Part shown: positions 32,509 through 40,821 of the stretch, in pieces
How positions within the stretch are numbered: position 1 is the stretch's first letter
Layout of the letters: every line of letters begins with the position of its first letter
Source of the DNA: Tabrizicola aquatica
GTDB lineage: Bacteria; Pseudomonadota; Alphaproteobacteria; Rhodobacterales; Rhodobacteraceae
DNA length: 64,000 nucleotides
Direction: 5' to 3'
Assembly: GCF_002900975.1 (NCBI RefSeq)
Contig: NZ_PJON01000001.1
Coordinates: forward strand, 1,116,001 to 1,180,000
Translations under genes and position numbers: made by a program
Notes under the pieces: model-generated
Databases searched by the model: none
What the model saw: the letters and a program-made list of their open reading frames with translations, nothing else
Told to the model about the DNA's origin: nothing

Positions 32509-33439
32509 CCTCGGGGCTCCATCCAATGTCCAGGGTCACGCCCTGCAACAGCGGCACCACCTCGGCCAGACCCTGCGGCATCCCGGTCATCACCGGCCCC
32601 AGCAGCCGCACCGGACCAAGCCCGGCCTCGGACCGCAGCCGCACCGTCAACCGGCCCGCTGGGTTGGGCATCTCCTCCACCAGCGCCACCAGCGCGGCCT
32701 TGCTTTCGGCCGAGACCAGCGCCTCGGGCAGATCGGCGATCCCCGCCTTCGCCTCTTGCCGCAGCGCCTCGGCGGCGGCGTCGATGTCGCCCTCGCTCTG
32801 CAGCAGACTTTCCCCCAGGCCCATCAGCAGGTAGGTCTCGAAGAACCCGTGGCTTTGCACCATCAGGTCGGCCTCGGTCACGGCAAAGCTGGTCAGCGAC
32901 ATCTGCGCCGCCCCGACCGAGCCCAGGTCCACCCCCGCAACCTTGGCGCTGAGCGTCACCAGGTTCTCGCCCGGCAGATCGACGGTCAGCCCCTCCACGG
33001 CCAGCACACGCGCCGGCGCATCCCAGGCCAGGTCCATCTCGACCCGGATCAGGTTCGACTTCGCTTGCGCCTGGGCCGCGTAAAGCCAATCCAAATGCGG
33101 AACGTCCAGCTTCACCACCATCCGCAGGCCTTGCACCCGCACCGACAGCCGGTCGGGAACGGTCGTGCCATCGGCAACCCATTGCAGCGCGCCGGACAGA
33201 TGCAGGCTGTCCATCAGCACATCCGGCATATACTGGCCCGGCAGGTCCAGCCGCAGGTCCGTGTAAAGACAGCCCTCCATCGCGCTTGGCGTCACGGTCG
33301 CGGCAAGCGGAGCGACCGGCTCGGCAATCGCGATCAGCCGCGCCAGCACCGCCTCGCAGACCGGCGGGACGACCGAGACCTGGGCCGCCGCAGGTGCAGC
33401 AAGCCCGGCCGCCAGAAACAGAGCCGCCGCCCGGATCAT
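32498..33439 (-). CDS. Secreted protein, first of two tandem paralogues
   Basis: A 313-residue exported protein (signal peptide 1-19, ending APAAAQ). Mature Cys at PPVCEAV and MEGCLYTD probably form a disulphide. The rest alternates hydrophobic and polar residues with several LxVxxLxVDL-type strands, and its last 100 residues match the downstream paralogue. Its start overlaps the end of ftsY by 4 bases, so it is made together with the SRP receptor and the EamA transporter. No known family; not obviously related to protein targeting. Confidence 0.75.
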   Translation of the reverse strand: MIRAAALFLAAGLAAPAAAQVSVVPPVCEAVLARLIAIAEPVAPLAATVTPSAMEGCLYTDLRLDLPGQYMPDVLMDSLHLSGALQWVADGTTVPDRLSVRVQGLRMVVKLDVPHLDWLYAAQAQAKSNLIRVEMDLAWDAPARVLAVEGLTVDLPGENLVTLSAKVAGVDLGSVGAAQMSLTSFAVTEADLMVQSHGFFETYLLMGLGESLLQSEGDIDAAAEALRQEAKAGIADLPEALVSAESKAALVALVEEMPNPAGRLTVRLRSEAGLGPVRLLGPVMTGMPQGLAEVVPLLQGVTLDIGWSPEDAP

Positions 33440-34458
33440 TCCGCAGCCCCCACCAGCGCGCGGGCGAAATCCTCGGGGTCGAAGGGCGCAAGGTCGTCGA
33501 TCTGCTCGCCCACACCGATGGCATGGATCGGCAGGCCGAACTTGTCGGCCAACGCCACCAGCACGCCCCCCTTGGCCGTGCCGTCCAGCTTGGTCATCAC
33601 CAGACCCGAGACATCGGCGATCTTGCGGAAGATGTCGACCTGCGTCACCGCGTTCTGCCCCGTGGTCGCGTCCAGCACCAGAAGCGTGTTGTGCGGCGCG
33701 GTTGGATCAACCTTGCGGATCACGCGCACGATCTTGGCCAACTCCTCCATCAGGTCGGCCCGGTTCTGCAACCGCCCCGCCGTGTCGATCATCAAAAGGT
33801 CCGCGCCGTCCGCCCGCGCCTTGGTCAGCGCATCGAACGCCAGCGACGCCGGGTCCGAGCCTTCGGGCGCGGTCAGCACCGGCACCCCGGCGCGCTGGCC
33901 CCAGATCTGCAACTGCTCCACCGCCGCCGCGCGGAACGTGTCACCGGCCGCGATCACCACCGACTTGCCCGCCGCCTTGAACTGGCTGGCGAGTTTCCCG
34001 ATCGTCGTCGTCTTGCCGGACCCGTTCACCCCAACCACCAGCACGACCTGCGGCTTTGTCGGATAAAGGGGCATCGGCCGCGCCACCGGGGTCATGATCC
34101 GCGCCACCTCCTCGGCCAGCGCCGTCCGCAACTCGCTGGTAGAGATGCGCTTGCCAAAGCGCCCCTCGGCGATGTTGGCCGTGACCCGGACAGCGGTATC
34201 CACGCCCATGTCGGCCTGGATCAGCACCTCCTCCAGGCTTTCCAGCATCGCATCGTCCAGTACGCGCCGCGGCTCCTCGGTCCGGCCGATCAGGCGGCCC
34301 AGAATACCGGGTTTCTCGGCTGCTGGCTGCGGCGTTTGCGCCGCAGGGGCTGCCGGCGTCTGAGGGGCCGCCTCGTCCGCGACCAGCGCCTCCAGCCCCT
34401 CGCCGATCTTGTCCGACGACCGGAACATCCGGTCCTTGAGTTTCTTGAAGAACGACAT
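33436..34458 (-). CDS. ftsY: Signal recognition particle receptor FtsY
   Basis: The SRP receptor GTPase that docks ribosome-nascent chain complexes at the membrane for SecYEG insertion. 340 residues: a short acidic/Ala-Pro-rich A region, the helical N domain, then the G domain with P-loop GVNGSGKTTTIGKLA, DTAGRLQNRADLMEEL, and the TKLDGTAKGG specificity loop. The closing stretch (GVGEQIDDLAPFDPEDFARAL) is typical. The shorter A region is usual for alphaproteobacteria. Confidence 0.97.
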   Translation of the reverse strand: MSFFKKLKDRMFRSSDKIGEGLEALVADEAAPQTPAAPAAQTPQPAAEKPGILGRLIGRTEEPRRVLDDAMLESLEEVLIQADMGVDTAVRVTANIAEGRFGKRISTSELRTALAEEVARIMTPVARPMPLYPTKPQVVLVVGVNGSGKTTTIGKLASQFKAAGKSVVIAAGDTFRAAAVEQLQIWGQRAGVPVLTAPEGSDPASLAFDALTKARADGADLLMIDTAGRLQNRADLMEELAKIVRVIRKVDPTAPHNTLLVLDATTGQNAVTQVDIFRKIADVSGLVMTKLDGTAKGGVLVALADKFGLPIHAIGVGEQIDDLAPFDPEDFARALVGAAE

Positions 34459-35300: not shown

Positions 35301-36362
35301 ATGCAACCCCGCCCTCTGCCGCTTGCCGGTTTCGCGCTGGCCGCACTCCTGCCTTTGCCGCTGCTTGCCCTTGGCGTGACGCTGGGCGGCGGCTGGCTTT
35401 GGGCGGCCTTCCTGTACATGGCGGTGCTGACGATCCTTCTCGACCAACTCATCCCCCTGACCGCCGGGGCCGACGAGGGGATGGAGTTTCCCGCCGCCGA
35501 CATCCTTCTGGTCAGCCTTGGCCTTGGCGCGCTGACGATCCTGCCGGTGGCCACCTGGGCCATCGCCGGCGACAGCCCCCTGACGGCGGGCGAGCGTGTG
35601 CTGTGCTTCTTCGCCACCGGCTTCTGGCTGGGCCAGGTCGCCCACCCCGCCGCGCACGAGCTGATCCACCGCCCCCGGCGCGAGCTGTTCCGGCTTGGTG
35701 CCGCCGTCTATGTCGCGCTGCTTTTCGGCCAGCACGCCAGCGCGCATCGGCTAGTCCACCACCGCCATGTCGGCAGCGCCGAGGACCCGAACACCGCTCG
35801 CGCGGGCGAGGGGTTCTACCGCTTTGCGCTCCGCGCCTGGCGCGGCAGCTTCCTGCAGGGCCTGCGGGCGGAAAGCGATCTGCGCGCGCGCGGCAGCCGG
35901 CTGGGTCTGCACCCCTACTACTTCTACATCGCCGGCAGCCTGTCGGCCCTGGTGCTGGCCGCGCTGATCGCTGGCCTGCCGGGCCTTCTGGCCTGGGCCG
36001 GCCTTGCCCTGCATGCGCAAAGCCAGGTCCTTCTGTCCGACTATGTCCAGCACTACGGCCTGACCCGCCTGCGCCAGCCCGACGGCCGGCTAGAGCCGGT
36101 GGGCCTGCGCCACAGCTGGAACACCGCGCATTGGTTTTCCTCGGCCCTCATGCTGAACGCCCCCCGCCACTCGGACCACCACGCCCACCCCGGGCGTCCC
36201 TTCCCCGCGCTTCGCCTTCCGCCCGAGGGCGAGGCCCCCCGCCTACCCTGGCCCCTGCCCCTGGCCTGCGCGCTGGCCCTCGCCCCCCGCCAGTGGAAGC
36301 GCCTGATTCGCCCGCATCTTGCCAAGTGGCAGGCCGCCGAGGCCAAGCAATCCGCGCGGTGA
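35301..36362 (+). CDS. AlkB-type alkane 1-monooxygenase / membrane fatty acid hydroxylase
   Basis: A 353-residue integral-membrane non-haem di-iron enzyme of the alkane hydroxylase/desaturase superfamily. The histidine clusters are intact: HELIH near 118, HRLVHHRHVGSAEDPNTA near 149, and HSWNTAHWFSS... HSDHHAHPGRPF near 290. The SAEDPNTAR phrase is typical of AlkB. It would hydroxylate the terminal carbon of alkanes or acyl chains using rubredoxin electrons; no rubredoxin gene is adjacent. A long frame upstream of the ATG at 35301 is very Pro/Arg-rich and not part of the protein. A C-rich non-coding gap follows. Confidence 0.9.
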   Translation: MQPRPLPLAGFALAALLPLPLLALGVTLGGGWLWAAFLYMAVLTILLDQLIPLTAGADEGMEFPAADILLVSLGLGALTILPVATWAIAGDSPLTAGERVLCFFATGFWLGQVAHPAAHELIHRPRRELFRLGAAVYVALLFGQHASAHRLVHHRHVGSAEDPNTARAGEGFYRFALRAWRGSFLQGLRAESDLRARGSRLGLHPYYFYIAGSLSALVLAALIAGLPGLLAWAGLALHAQSQVLLSDYVQHYGLTRLRQPDGRLEPVGLRHSWNTAHWFSSALMLNAPRHSDHHAHPGRPFPALRLPPEGEAPRLPWPLPLACALALAPRQWKRLIRPHLAKWQAAEAKQSAR

Positions 36363-36759
36363 CCACTCTCGCCTGCCCTAGGTCAGTGATGCCTCGCAGC
36401 CTGACTGGCGCCGCAAAGCGTTCCAGCCACCCGCCCCCACCAAGCGTGACCAACCCGGCGTCGGTGCATCGGCTTTGCCGCCCCCACCAACCTCCATCGC
36501 CGCGCCAGACCCGCAACCGCGCAAGCCTGACTCGTCGCCTCAGTCCAGCCGCCAACAGATAGCCCCGCACCCCCGACGCCGTTTCCACACCCGCCCCGCG
36601 TGACCCGCCGCACGCTGCCCCCTCGACGCGACACCGTCGCACCTGTTCGGCCCAGCGCCACCGCCCCTCCGCGCGCCCTGCGCAAGACACGGGCGCTTGA
36701 CTGGCCAATCGCTCCCGTCTCTGGCAGTCTCCCCCCGAACCGACCTGCTGGAGCCGTAG
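36363..36759. other. C-rich gap without recognised gene
   Basis: 397 bases between the AlkB-like gene and the first four-Cys protein. The plus strand is strikingly C-rich and G-poor in runs (for example around 36425-36500). I see no stem followed by T run and no convincing ORF on either strand. Such C-over-G stretches are typical Rho loading sites, so it may terminate the AlkB transcript; it must also carry the promoter of the next gene (a TTGACT lies near 36698). Confidence 0.5.
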
Positions 36760-37152
36760 ATGCGCCATCTTCTTGCCGCCCTGATCCTGACCGCCACGCC
36801 CGTCCTCGCCGAAACGCCGCTCTCCGCGCCCGAGTTCGACGCCGCCACCCTTGGCGCCACGATCACCTATGACTACGGCGGCGGCCTCTTCGGGACCGAG
36901 GAATACCTCGCCGACCGCCGCGTCCGCTGGGCGTTCGAGGGCGACCTGTGCATCTACGGCACCTGGTATCAGGCGGGCGACGAGATCTGCTTTGCCTACG
37001 AGAACGACCCCGACCCGGCCTGCTGGCTGTACTTCCTGGAAAACGGCAAAATTCGCGGCCGCTACATGGGCGAAGGCGGCGGGTGGGAGATCGTCGAACA
37101 TTCCCGCGACGGCGGCCCCTTGCCCTGCGCCGGTCCCGACGTCGGCGTCTGA
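36760..37152 (+). CDS. Small secreted four-cysteine protein, tandem paralogue 1
   Basis: A 130-residue protein with a signal peptide cut after about residue 17 (PVLA). The mature part starts ETPLSAPEFDA and has Cys at 64, 77, 88 and 123, with the core YGTWYQAGDEICFAYE and the C-terminus PCAGPDVGV. Four more copies follow. All keep Cys spacing 13, 11 and 34-35 residues, which implies two disulphides in the periplasm or outside. The layout (LSxxDF, then ...GTWYxxGDxICFxYE) recalls the DUF995-like small exported proteins, but I cannot confirm membership. Function unknown. A 382-base gap separates it from copy 2. Confidence 0.82.
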   Translation: MRHLLAALILTATPVLAETPLSAPEFDAATLGATITYDYGGGLFGTEEYLADRRVRWAFEGDLCIYGTWYQAGDEICFAYENDPDPACWLYFLENGKIRGRYMGEGGGWEIVEHSRDGGPLPCAGPDVGV

Positions 37153-37534
37153 TGCCCTCCGGTCCGCCCCCCGCGCTGCCGACACCAACCCGCGCACCTG
37201 CTGCCCGTGTCGCCAAGGATCAGCCCCGCCCCAATCGTGGCGGCACGGCGCAGCGGGCGCATCCCACGCCTCGCGATATCCACCTTCGCGCCATACCGCC
37301 CGCCAGCCCCGCGCGCCCGGCAGGCGGGCCCAAGCGCATGACCTGCCCCCGTCCTTTCCGCGCTCTGCCGACAGGCGCTGCGCAAGGGGTGGTCGGTGCC
37401 ATCGACCAACCCCCAGCGGCCACCCGGGCCAGGGGTCAGCCCCACCCAGGGCCGCTGCCCGGCACCTCCCCGCTCAAGCACCGCCGCGTCCGCAACCCGC
37501 GCCAGCCTGGCGCCCCCAGCCCCCGGACCCACTG
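37153..37534. other. C-rich gap inside the paralogue array
   Basis: 382 bases between copies 1 and 2 of the four-Cys family. Composition is like the gap at 36363, with C-rich plus-strand runs. I find no remnant of the family's motifs (LSxxDF, ICFxYE, PDVGV) in any frame, so a decayed copy is not supported. It presumably separates two transcripts. Confidence 0.45.
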
Positions 37535-37924
37535 ATGCGCGCCGTCCTCCTCCTGTCGCTGCTCGCCACCCCCGCGCTGGCCGAAGTCCCGCTCTCGGCC
37601 CCGGACTTCGAGACGCATGTCTCCGGCCACACCCTGACCTACACCCAGTTCGGCCGCGTCTACGGGGTCGAGGAATACCTTCCCGGCCGCAAGGTCCGCT
37701 GGTCGGTCGCGCCCGATGAATGCCAGTACGGCACCTGGTATCCCGAAGGCGACTTCATCTGCTTCGTCTACGAATACGACCCCAACCCGTCCTGCTGGAC
37801 CTTCTGGCTGCGCGAGGGGCGGCTGGTCGCCCTCTCCATCGCCGATGCCCCCGGGGCCGAATTGACCGAGGCCGAGCGTAGCCAGACCCCCTTGCCCTGC
37901 CCCGGCCCGGATGTGGGGGTCTGA
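37535..37924 (+). CDS. Small secreted four-cysteine protein, tandem paralogue 2
   Basis: A 129-residue protein, signal peptide to about residue 16 (ATPALA). Mature part: EVPLSAPDFE, YGVEEYLPGRKVRWSV, YGTWYPEGDFICFVYE, PSCWTFW, and C-terminus PCPGPDVGV. Cys at 63, 76, 87, 122. It is the closest of the set to copy 4 (both have FGxVYGVExYLPGRKVRW). Its stop overlaps the start of copy 3 (TGATG), so they are coupled; it is probably the first gene of a four-gene operon. Confidence 0.85.
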   Translation: MRAVLLLSLLATPALAEVPLSAPDFETHVSGHTLTYTQFGRVYGVEEYLPGRKVRWSVAPDECQYGTWYPEGDFICFVYEYDPNPSCWTFWLREGRLVALSIADAPGAELTEAERSQTPLPCPGPDVGV

Positions 37925-38313
37925 TGCGCCGCGCCTTTCTTCTCGCGCTCCTCGCCGCGCCCGCCGCAGCCCAGACCCCGATGACGCCCGAGGAATTCGA
38001 AGCCTGGGCCACCGGCAAGACCCTGGACTATGCCGTGGGCGGCCAGGTCTGGGGCAGCGAGGCCTATCACCCCGGCCGCCGGGTGACCGACGCTGATGCC
38101 GACGGGCCCTGCCGCGCGGGGCGCTGGTTCCCCCGCGAGGGGGCCGTGTGCTTTGTCTATCAGGACCTCCCCGGCGAGCATTGCTGGCGCTTCTGGCGCG
38201 ACGGCCAGACCGTCCTCGCCAGCCCGCTGACCGCCGATCCCGCCGATCCGCCCCAGACCGTCACCCCTGCCGCCGGGCCGCTTGCCTGTCCCGGACCGGA
38301 TGTCGGCGTCTAA
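37924..38313 (+). CDS. Small secreted four-cysteine protein, tandem paralogue 3
   Basis: 129 residues with a signal peptide to about residue 16 (APAAA). This copy is the most divergent in its middle: the PGRKVRW segment reads PGRRVTDAD, and the Tyr of YGxExY is Trp (VWGSEAY). Cys at 63, 76, 87 and 122 keep exactly the spacing of copies 2 and 4, and the C-terminus is PLACPGPDVGV. It starts inside the stop of copy 2 and is followed after 14 bases by copy 4. Confidence 0.84.
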   Translation: MRRAFLLALLAAPAAAQTPMTPEEFEAWATGKTLDYAVGGQVWGSEAYHPGRRVTDADADGPCRAGRWFPREGAVCFVYQDLPGEHCWRFWRDGQTVLASPLTADPADPPQTVTPAAGPLACPGPDVGV

Positions 38314-38327
38314 CGCAGGGACAGCCC

Positions 38328-38717
38328 ATGCGCCTTCTCGTCACCCTTGCCCTGCTGACCGGCCCCGCGATGGCCGAGACACCGCTTTCGGCGCAGGACT
38401 TCGACGCCCTGACCCGGGGCCGCACCCTGACCTGGGCCGAGTTCGGCCAGGTCTACGGGGTCGAACAATACCTGCCCGGCCGCAAGGTCCGCTGGACCGT
38501 GCTGGGCGACGACTGCCAGACCGGCCATTGGTACGCGCACGACCAGGCGATCTGCTTTCTCTATGACGGCCGCACCGACCCGGTCTGCTGGGAGATCACC
38601 GCCGCAGGCACCGCCCTGCACGCCCGTCTCAGCGGCAGCCCCCCGGATGCTGCCCCGGTGATCCTGGAAGAGACGACCGCCCCCCTGGCCTGCTTCGGCC
38701 CCGAGGTCGGCGTCTGA
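38328..38717 (+). CDS. Small secreted four-cysteine protein, tandem paralogue 4
   Basis: 129 residues, signal peptide to about residue 16 (GPAMA). Shares LSAQDFDALTRGRTL, YGVEQYLPGRKVRWTV and QAICFLYD with its neighbours; Cys at 63, 76, 87, 122; C-terminus PLACFGPEVGV. Where copy 2 has Trp-rich PSCWTFW, this one has PVCWEIT. The stop overlaps the start of copy 5 (TGATG). Confidence 0.85.
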   Translation: MRLLVTLALLTGPAMAETPLSAQDFDALTRGRTLTWAEFGQVYGVEQYLPGRKVRWTVLGDDCQTGHWYAHDQAICFLYDGRTDPVCWEITAAGTALHARLSGSPPDAAPVILEETTAPLACFGPEVGV

Positions 38718-39130
38718 TGCGCGCCGCTCCCGTCCTCGCCCTCGTCCTCGCCCTTCTCCTGACGCTCCAGCCGCCGACGGCCCAGGCGGAAGGGGCAGAC
38801 CCGCCGCTCTCGGCCCAGGACTTCGAGGCCATCGTCCAGGGCCGCACCTTCGACACGCTCAACCTCTCCGGCCGCTACGGGGTGGAAACCTTCCTGCCCG
38901 GCCGCCGCGCGATCTGGCGCGATGCGGGGCAATGCCTGGAAGGCACCTGGCGCGCCGAGGGCGAGATGATCTGCTTCGACTACCTGGGCGAACCCTTCCC
39001 CTATTGCTGGACCTACCACGACCGGGGCGGCTGGCTGGTGGCCTGGCTGAACGGCGACCGCAGCCGCGAGCCGATCACGCTGCAACCCGCTGACGAGGTG
39101 GTGACCTGCGAAGGCTTCTTCGGCGTCTGA
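38717..39130 (+). CDS. Small secreted four-cysteine protein, tandem paralogue 5
   Basis: 137 residues with a longer signal peptide (about 24 residues, ending TAQA). Mature part: PPLSAQDFEAIVQGRTF, YGVETFLPGRRAIW, EGTWRAEGEMICFDYL, PYCWTYH. Cys at 73, 86, 97 and 131 (spacing 13, 11, 34). The C-terminus is CEGFFGV instead of CPGPDVGV, so only the last two residues of that motif remain. Last gene of the array; two family A palindromes lie just behind it. Confidence 0.85.
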   Translation: MRAAPVLALVLALLLTLQPPTAQAEGADPPLSAQDFEAIVQGRTFDTLNLSGRYGVETFLPGRRAIWRDAGQCLEGTWRAEGEMICFDYLGEPFPYCWTYHDRGGWLVAWLNGDRSREPITLQPADEVVTCEGFFGV

Positions 39131-39252: not shown

Positions 39253-40821
39253 TCAGAACAGGCTCCCCTGCCCGCTCTCGCCCTCGCCCCGGCCCTTCTT
39301 GCCTGGCCTGCCACCGACCAGAAGCCGCCCGTCGCGGAATTCGATCTCCAGCGCCGCAGCCTTCTCGGCCCCGGCTTTCGAAGTGACCACCGCCCCGTCC
39401 CCCCGCACGACCGCATAGCCCCGCTTCAAGGTCTCGGCATAGCCTAGCGTGACCCGCGTCCGGTCCAGCGCCTCCAGCCGGTCGGCCAGCCGGGCCAGCC
39501 GCTGCCGGGGCGCCGCGTTCAGCCGGTCGCCCAGCCGCGCCAGGTCGCGCCGCCCGTCGCCCACCTTCCGCCCCGCCTCGCCCAGCATCCGCGCCAGCGC
39601 CGGGGCCAGCCGGGCCGCCAGCGCCTCCAGCCGCTCCCCCCGCCGTTCCAGCCGCAAAAGGATCGCGCGGGCCAGCCGCTCCTCCCGCGCGCCAAGCAGG
39701 TCCCGCTGTCGCGCCACCAGCCCCCGCAGCGCCGCAGGCTGCAGCCGCCCCGCCACCCGGTCAAACTCGCGGTGCTTCTTCGCGACCGCCAGCCCAAGCC
39801 CCGAGCCAAGCCGCATCCCGCAGGTATCCAGCCGCTGCCGCGGCGTCGCCACCAGCGTCTCGACCCGAGGCAAGGCCCGCGACAGGTCCCGCAACCTTTG
39901 CCGCCGCAGGGTCACACCCTGCCCCACCCCCCGCACCAGCCGCGCGCCCAGCGCCTCCAACACCGCCAGCAACTCCAGCCGCACCGGCACCGCCAGCTCC
40001 GCCGCCGCCGTGGGCGTCGGGGCCCGCAGGTCCGAAGCATAGTCGATCAGCGTCGTATCCGTCTCATGCCCCACCGCGCTGATCAGCGGGATCGCCGACC
40101 CTGCCGCCGCCCGCACCACGATCTCTTCGTTGAACCCCCACAGGTCCTCCAGCGACCCGCCACCCCGCGCCACGATCAGCACATCAGGGCGCGGGATGGG
40201 CCCACCCGGCGCAATCGCGTTGAACCCCCGGATCGCCGCCGCCACCTGCGCCGCACAGTCCTGGCCCTGCACCGCCACCGGCCAGATCAGCACATGCCGG
40301 GGAAAGCGGTCCCGCAGCCGGTGCAGGATATCCCGGATCACCGCGCCACTGGGCGAGGTCACCACCCCGATCACCTTTGGCAGATAGGGAATCTGCTTCT
40401 TCCGGCCCGCATCAAACAGCCCCTCGGCCCCCAGCGCGGCCTTCCGCTTCTCCAGCATCGCCATCAGCGCGCCCGCGCCCGCCGGGGCCACGTCATCGAC
40501 GATCAGCTGATACTTCGATTGCCCCGGAAAGGTGGTCATCCGCCCGGTGGCCACGACCTCCATCCCCTCCTCGGGCCGCACCTGCATCCGCGCGACCTGG
40601 CCCTTCCAGCTGATCGCGGCAATCACGCTGCGGTCATCCTTCAGGTCAAAGTACAGATGCCCCGAGGCCGGACGCGACACCCGCCCCACCTCGCCCCGGA
40701 CCCTGACAAGGCCGAACTCGCCCTCGATCACGCGCTTCACCGCGCCCGAAAGTTCGGACACGGTGTATTCCGGCTGGTTGCCGCTGGGTCGGGGACCGTC
40801 GTCTTCGAAAAGCTCGCTCAT
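39253..40821 (-). CDS. xseA: Exodeoxyribonuclease VII large subunit
   Basis: The large subunit of the single-strand-specific nuclease ExoVII, used in mismatch repair and damage processing. 522 residues: N-terminal OB-fold (EYTVSELSGAVKRVIEGEFG, then VRGEVGRVSRPASGHLYFDLKDD in parts), then the catalytic domain with PYLPKVIGVVTSPSGAVIRDI, LIVARGGGSLEDLWGFNEE and SAVGHETDTTLIDYASDLRAPTP in parts, and a long Arg/Leu-rich coiled coil. Small subunit xseB is not adjacent. Confidence 0.96.
   Translation of the reverse strand: MSELFEDDGPRPSGNQPEYTVSELSGAVKRVIEGEFGLVRVRGEVGRVSRPASGHLYFDLKDDRSVIAAISWKGQVARMQVRPEEGMEVVATGRMTTFPGQSKYQLIVDDVAPAGAGALMAMLEKRKAALGAEGLFDAGRKKQIPYLPKVIGVVTSPSGAVIRDILHRLRDRFPRHVLIWPVAVQGQDCAAQVAAAIRGFNAIAPGGPIPRPDVLIVARGGGSLEDLWGFNEEIVVRAAAGSAIPLISAVGHETDTTLIDYASDLRAPTPTAAAELAVPVRLELLAVLEALGARLVRGVGQGVTLRRQRLRDLSRALPRVETLVATPRQRLDTCGMRLGSGLGLAVAKKHREFDRVAGRLQPAALRGLVARQRDLLGAREERLARAILLRLERRGERLEALAARLAPALARMLGEAGRKVGDGRRDLARLGDRLNAAPRQRLARLADRLEALDRTRVTLGYAETLKRGYAVVRGDGAVVTSKAGAEKAAALEIEFRDGRLLVGGRPGKKGRGEGESGQGSLF

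Follow-up and report, generated by a model that had tools for sequence, protein, structure and literature searches.

A stretch of 64,000 nucleotides from the Tabrizicola aquatica genome (hereafter the window) carries five consecutive genes for small exported proteins with four cysteines each, which form an old and orderly rather than fast-changing array. The family to which they belong is genuine, unnamed, and widely kept, and its predicted fold is of a known kind. We tentatively regard the array as an ancient, ordered set of paralogous periplasmic calycin-like barrels in which each copy binds a small molecule that differs among the copies, a plausible reading that could well prove wrong.

All five genes lie on the forward strand, between the conserved flanks ftsY (33436..34458, reverse strand) and xseA (39253..40821, reverse strand). 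Copy 1 occupies 36760..37152 (130 aa), copy 2 37535..37924 (129 aa), copy 3 37924..38313 (129 aa), copy 4 38328..38717 (129 aa), and copy 5 38717..39130 (137 aa), with successive gaps of 382, -1, 14, and -1 nt, such that copies 2 and 3 and copies 4 and 5 overlap by 1 nt. Each protein has exactly four cysteines (C1 to C4), spaced 13-11-35 in copies 1-4 and 13-11-34 in copy 5, and the first-pass annotation of this DNA was right, coordinates included, to describe five tandem paralogues of 129-137 residues with cysteines 13, 11, and 34-35 residues apart, copies 2-5 overlapping or almost touching. The motifs that it listed (LSxxDF, an ICFxYx core, and a PDVGV-type end) are present but looser than claimed, with copy 1 reading LSAPEF and copy 3 reading MTPEEF and VCF; copy 5, said to have lost PDVGV, does end in EGFFGV, yet keeps the final GV. 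A search of the whole 3.87-Mb genome with a five-copy profile recovered the five copies at E 2e-49 to 1e-63 and no sixth member below E 0.6 (the next match had E 0.62), and chance is therefore excluded. Copies 2-5 share 33-51% identity with copy 1, and no tandem repeats were found. On inspection, all five N-termini read as Sec-type signal peptides with an A-x-A-like end and no lipobox, and export is predicted for every copy, as had been proposed.

The annotation also took the array to be expanding and diversifying, a view that its history does not support. A FastTree phylogeny of 196 proteins (the window's five and 191 from named loci, with five open reading frames lacking a usable start left out) groups the copies by position: copy 1 falls in an orthologous clade of its own with 39 tips (support 0.93), copy 2 in one of 41 (0.84), and copy 5 in one of 32 (0.95), and copies 3 and 4 form a joint clade of 48 tips (0.91) as well as separate clades of 20 (0.86) and 26 (0.85). 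Of the 37 multi-copy arrays, ten of which have just two copies, 32 keep the position order, seven of them as exactly 1-2-3-4-5; the exceptions are L039, L041, L060, L074, and L095, the last of which runs 5-unlabelled-1. Median dN/dS for positions 1 to 5 is 0.22, 0.37, 0.43, 0.37, and 0.35, with single pairs up to 0.84-1.11; these NG86 values are gene-wide averages for the mature part, taken from pairs with dS of 0.05-1.2 (median dS 0.77-0.90, partly saturated), and they place all five positions under overall purifying selection, with selection at a few sites still possible. Position-wise clades, conserved order, and gene-wide dN/dS together led us to reject a recent or arms-race expansion, and the array was therefore built long ago, with most places kept.

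Copy 2 is likely nearest to the ancestral form because its clade includes single-copy genes of near genera. Nine genes in this clade were counted as single, three of them from loci whose second copy was left out; L049, L067, and L068 were counted as single in the analyses of order and of upstream regions, and each has a second copy in a left-out reading frame. A separate group (support 0.90) is made up of 31 single-copy genes from other genera. Across the 196 proteins, at least 90% conservation is seen (copy 2 numbering) at F25, G31, T33, G44, E46, R52, C63, G66, W68, I75, C76, F77, Y79, C87, W88, C122, G124, P125, and G128. Other residues hold a majority at one position of the array: for example, copy 3 proteins mostly carry M20 and the clade-specific substitution W56D, copy 4 proteins W36 and H67, and copy 5 proteins T36 and F48, with D35 common to copies 3 and 5, a pattern that would fit specialization of the copies. 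With five orthologous series from many genera at one conserved locus, the ordered array offers a naturally occurring test of the way in which a small exported barrel splits its job among paralogues.

The family is represented by at least 622 homologues, for which the name, where one is given among the 120 matches listed, is 'hypothetical protein'. Within the Rhodobacteraceae, the taxonomic family of the window, 241 of 295 genomes match the family at least once at E 0.001, corresponding to 240 of 294 genera and 215 of 260 good-quality genomes. Copy number is one in 189 of the 241 positive genomes and two to eight in 52, although these numbers may be underestimates, with 14 candidates scored in nearly every surveyed genome. 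Named relatives include Tabrizicola and Rhodobacter, and a plasmid collection yielded one relative, unannotated. As most positive genomes hold a single copy, clean deletion should be possible, and the family is worth naming and testing.

Profile searches gave no confident match of the five copies to a characterized family, in agreement with the first-pass statement that no described function is known. In Pfam, searched up to E 10, four copies had no match and the fifth had one at E 0.24 within its signal peptide, and NCBIfam matched none of the five; the family has no name in either collection, and no description of it was found among the open-access literature matches listed. PADLOC gave no match, PHROGs one weak match in one member (E 0.31), BFVD none under E 0.001, and Rfam only mir-5366, at 28.3 bits against a cut-off of 73, which was taken as chance. 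Scattered Pfam matches among 30 scanned members were likewise taken as chance, the best being ADAMTS_C (E 0.0071, two members), as were matches to the Aladin propeller in six of the 30 (best E 0.01).

Further members were found at E 8e-5 to 8e-31 in twelve genomes picked because their scores were weak or multiple. In a 17-member alignment of close and distant proteins, the G and E of the first strands, C2, an F, and C3 are invariant, and a T, C1, a G, and C4 are nearly so. Of 240 genomes of the class searched with a broad profile at E 1e-5, 24 contain relatives, three of them in the window's own family. Tandem sets are also seen among distant relatives in other lineages, and three of the eight distant-relative regions (L188, L189, and L190) place them within about 10 kb of the ftsY or xseA gene that also flanks the array of the window; duplication at this locus therefore seems to be recurrent or very old.

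Several observations on individual relatives may be recorded here. Two proteins, P0017 and P0084, on contigs of 971 and 581 bases, appear by eye to be hybrids of a copy-1-type and a copy-2-type half, and apparently represent either recombination between copies or assembly chimeras. A family member was also found in L083, a record titled Enemella evansiae TN21-6, which we take to be an actinobacterium, and the record seems mislabelled or contaminated. An FdsB-like gene, presumably of the formate dehydrogenase beta type from its name, lies upstream of the family, in divergent orientation, in 16 of the 80 named loci (L087, L088, L090, L093, L094, L096, L098-L101, L107, L109, L111, and L113-L115) and in four of the eight distant-relative regions (L186, L188, L190, and L191), with Nuo51 and 2Fe-2S domains (Pfam) in both of the genes scanned. 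In two of these eight regions, each from a distant lineage, a DsbH/DUF255 thioredoxin-like gene lies 3' of the tandem relatives on the same strand (L188, 9293-11428; L189, 4825-7326), directly at a shared base in one and after a TPR gene in the other, and a thiol link is possible.

A promoter is predicted upstream of copy 1, where the element CTTGACTGG-N15-TCTGGCA (36696..36726, forward strand) resembles a promoter whose spacer is 17 nt long and whose second hexamer, within its second half TCTGGCA, is unusual. The exact element occurs in 24 of 78 upstream regions of relatives (22 of 35 multi-copy and two of 43 counted as single), 59-64 nt before the start in 22 of the 24, and in the two counted-single loci that have it (L081 and L104) the sequence stops shortly after the gene. 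When up to three mismatches are allowed, it is found in 32 of the 35 and 10 of the 43, as compared with an average of about seven mismatches and a best of four to six in shuffled controls, and it precedes none of 111 internal copies. The window site is the only zero-mismatch match in the genome, and no genome-wide regulon was seen, with 23 matches at up to three mismatches against 28 in a reversed control. At several single-copy roseobacter loci, about 10 nt separate the end of a TCTGGCA from the start codon, an arrangement like that of a leaderless transcript.

The non-coding spacer between copies 1 and 2 (37153..37534) occurs once in the genome, and its 382 nt are exceptional, as 103 of 111 intergenic gaps in named relatives are no longer than 34 nt. 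The spacer is about the length of a gene, but its best family match (E 0.009) is on the opposite strand, and a decayed copy was rejected, with no copy remnant detectable. This gap and the one at 36363-36759 have G+C contents of 77% and 72%, respectively, and both are far longer than in most relatives.

AlphaFold models of copies 2 and 5 have eight strands in order (DSSP) and give the same barrel, which is predicted to be a calycin-like, eight-stranded, up-and-down fold. The nearest solved structures to both models are calycin-type barrels, with AprI and VtrC not among the matches listed (VIA-align, best 50 for each model). At the sequence level, no match to a solved structure was significant; a match of copy 2 alone to 6c1z, a 'Lipid Binding Protein' (E 0.03), was not repeated by the five-copy profile and was set aside, and the broad profile gave scattered matches with a best E of 0.019.

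The four cysteines are all present in 441 of 453 aligned relatives, a redundant set aligned over 135 residues, with a cysteine accepted within two columns of its expected place, or six for C4. C1 and C4 are jointly absent in four distant relatives and C2 and C3 in one gene (counted twice), C4 lies beyond the 135 residues in four further relatives, and L074 ends at a contig end. Loss of one cysteine of a pair has no confirmed case among the 453 relatives, P0221 being the one doubtful case. Because cysteines are lost in these pairs together, disulphides C1-C4 and C2-C3 are predicted as the only pairing that fits. The paired losses and the two models support the earlier picture of a common fold in which the cysteines are fixed and the rest has diverged.

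Ligand binding, inhibition of secreted enzymes, and a role in envelope stress, the three functions suggested in the first-pass annotation, are all compatible with these data, and the features can be assembled into a tentative account. The proteins would be exported as soluble periplasmic barrels, oxidized, and locked by the C1-C4 and C2-C3 disulphides. A single ancestral gene, now nearest to copy 2 and preceded in many relatives by an AlkB-like gene, may have been duplicated in the lineage of Tabrizicola, Rhodobacter, and Gemmobacter, and the copies are probably co-expressed from the element upstream of copy 1, aided by translational coupling. The holding of small hydrophobic molecules is a common use of such barrels, and we infer that each copy most likely holds a small, probably hydrophobic, periplasmic molecule, with different molecules divided among the paralogues. 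A more specific version, which we consider quite unlikely, is a bacterial 'lipocalin cluster' of five periplasmic barrels in fixed order, co-expressed and inherited as a unit across genera, with every barrel binding its own member of a group of related hydrophobic molecules; if true, the ligands could be, for example, oxidized lipids linked to the adjacent AlkB-like enzyme.

Some calycin-type barrels inhibit proteases, and the five proteins might instead be periplasmic inhibitors of secreted or envelope proteases, Inh/AprI- or potempin-like, with one enzyme per copy. This is unlikely, as potempin E ties as a structural match with ToxS, TP0435, and several lipocalin-like proteins, and as neither the fixed order nor the purifying selection points to targets that change. 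The Pfam Inh profile (PF02974) also matches none of the five copies or ten further relatives, and the seven neighbours queried across 80 loci (ftsY, YhhN, AlkB-like, xseA, purD, a DJ-1/PfpI protein, and one unnamed protein) include no secreted protease. A further alternative, which we also judge unlikely, is that the barrels serve envelope proteins as accessory subunits, as ToxS does for ToxR and YedD for LptDE, and bind another protein instead of a small molecule.

The locus itself raises the question of a partnership with the neighbouring membrane hydroxylase or desaturase, in which the barrels would carry or sense its hydroxylated products. In the window, this AlkB-like gene (35304..36362, forward strand; PF00487; start codon chosen by us) ends 397 nt before copy 1, an outlier. 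Among the named-genome loci (the best 80 of 189 confirmed stretches, many of them cut by contig ends), window neighbours used as queries were found in 66 (ftsY), 64 (AlkB-like), 59 (xseA), 52 (purD), and 19 (YhhN), in the usual arrangement ftsY(-), [YhhN(-)], AlkB-like(+), family(+), xseA(-), purD(+). The AlkB-like gene is upstream in 63 loci, at a median of 56 nt, and in 61 of the 63 it ends within 200 nt of the family on the same strand; in L102 it lies downstream of the family gene. Its product is an FA_desaturase-family protein that aligns with the solved alkane monooxygenases 8sbb (E 4e-28) and 8f6t (E 2e-26) across histidine-rich stretches. The family is present in 134 of 150 genomes with a strict AlkB-like match (E 1e-65) and in 107 of 145 without one, a co-occurrence above chance (odds ratio 3.0, p 0.0008) in a comparison that ignores relatedness. 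This association is real but loose: the family persists in those 107 genomes lacking a close AlkB-like match, the enzyme is present without the family in 16 others, the same association could arise from shared ancestry of the locus, and the array has its own promoter-like element, which makes the partnership decidedly improbable. A bank of immunity proteins against competitors' toxins, suggested by a copy number of 1 to 8 and by a resemblance of tandem, non-identical small proteins to immunity arrays such as esaG (in the available text of PMC9484751), is already disfavoured and very improbable, given that the copies are orthologous by position across genera, that the locus is conserved, that most Rhodobacteraceae genomes have the family, that selection is purifying overall, and that no toxin is among the neighbours queried.

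The preferred reading, of barrels that each bind a different small molecule, can be set against known families. Inh is rare in the genomes searched, with none of 100 over the cut-off and one of 142 in a second set, too few for a profile. Inhibitors of this type have a single disulphide and are encoded beside a secreted protease; the present family differs in its two predicted disulphides, and no adjacent protease was identified among the queried neighbours. The likeness to Inh/AprI lies in the metalloprotease inhibitors being a periplasmic branch of the calycins, as given in the available text of PMC4933562. Two adjacent relatives from Hasllibacter halocynthiae, P0125 and P0222, are labelled 'Protease inhibitor Inh' in UniRef, and both are among the ten further relatives without a match to the Pfam profile.

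Lipocalins carry a G-x-W motif in the first strand. This is absent from the family, in which the first strand has G31-x-T33 and a G-x-W (66-68) is found in the fourth strand, and the family is also shorter, with at most 137 residues including the signal peptide as compared with 149-166 for chains of E. coli Blc. A remote likeness may exist to DUF995 (PF06191), an alphaproteobacterial family with G-x-T, G-x-W, and two cysteines in register with the distant relatives, but with cysteine spacing unlike the family's in the members read. At the DUF995 cut-off of 20 bits, the five copies had no match and one of eight distant relatives reached 18.2 bits (E 0.0021). Profile-profile comparison of the distant relatives with five DUF995 members, signal peptides removed, gave probability 20 and a score of 24.6, against 8.6-17.7 for ten shuffles, 11.6 for a reversed control, and 14.0 for the close family; the untrimmed comparison (probability 95) was inflated by signal peptides. 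A remote tie to DUF995 is thus possible, rather than membership. Among the open-access papers listed, each of the two names occurs in one: PF06191 is given as a DUF over-represented in rhizobia in the available text of PMC4653623, and DUF995 is named in a rice study.

The broadest comparison is with the calycin barrels, whose branches, according to the available text of PMC4933562, are lipocalins, fatty-acid binding proteins, avidins, and metalloprotease inhibitors, and where VtrC of the VtrA/VtrC pair is described as binding bile salts in its chamber. The predicted models share their fold class with ToxS, VtrC, potempin E, TP0435, and Bacteroides lipocalin-like proteins, and the family differs from these barrels in its two predicted disulphides in a fixed pattern and in its tandem, ordered arrays.
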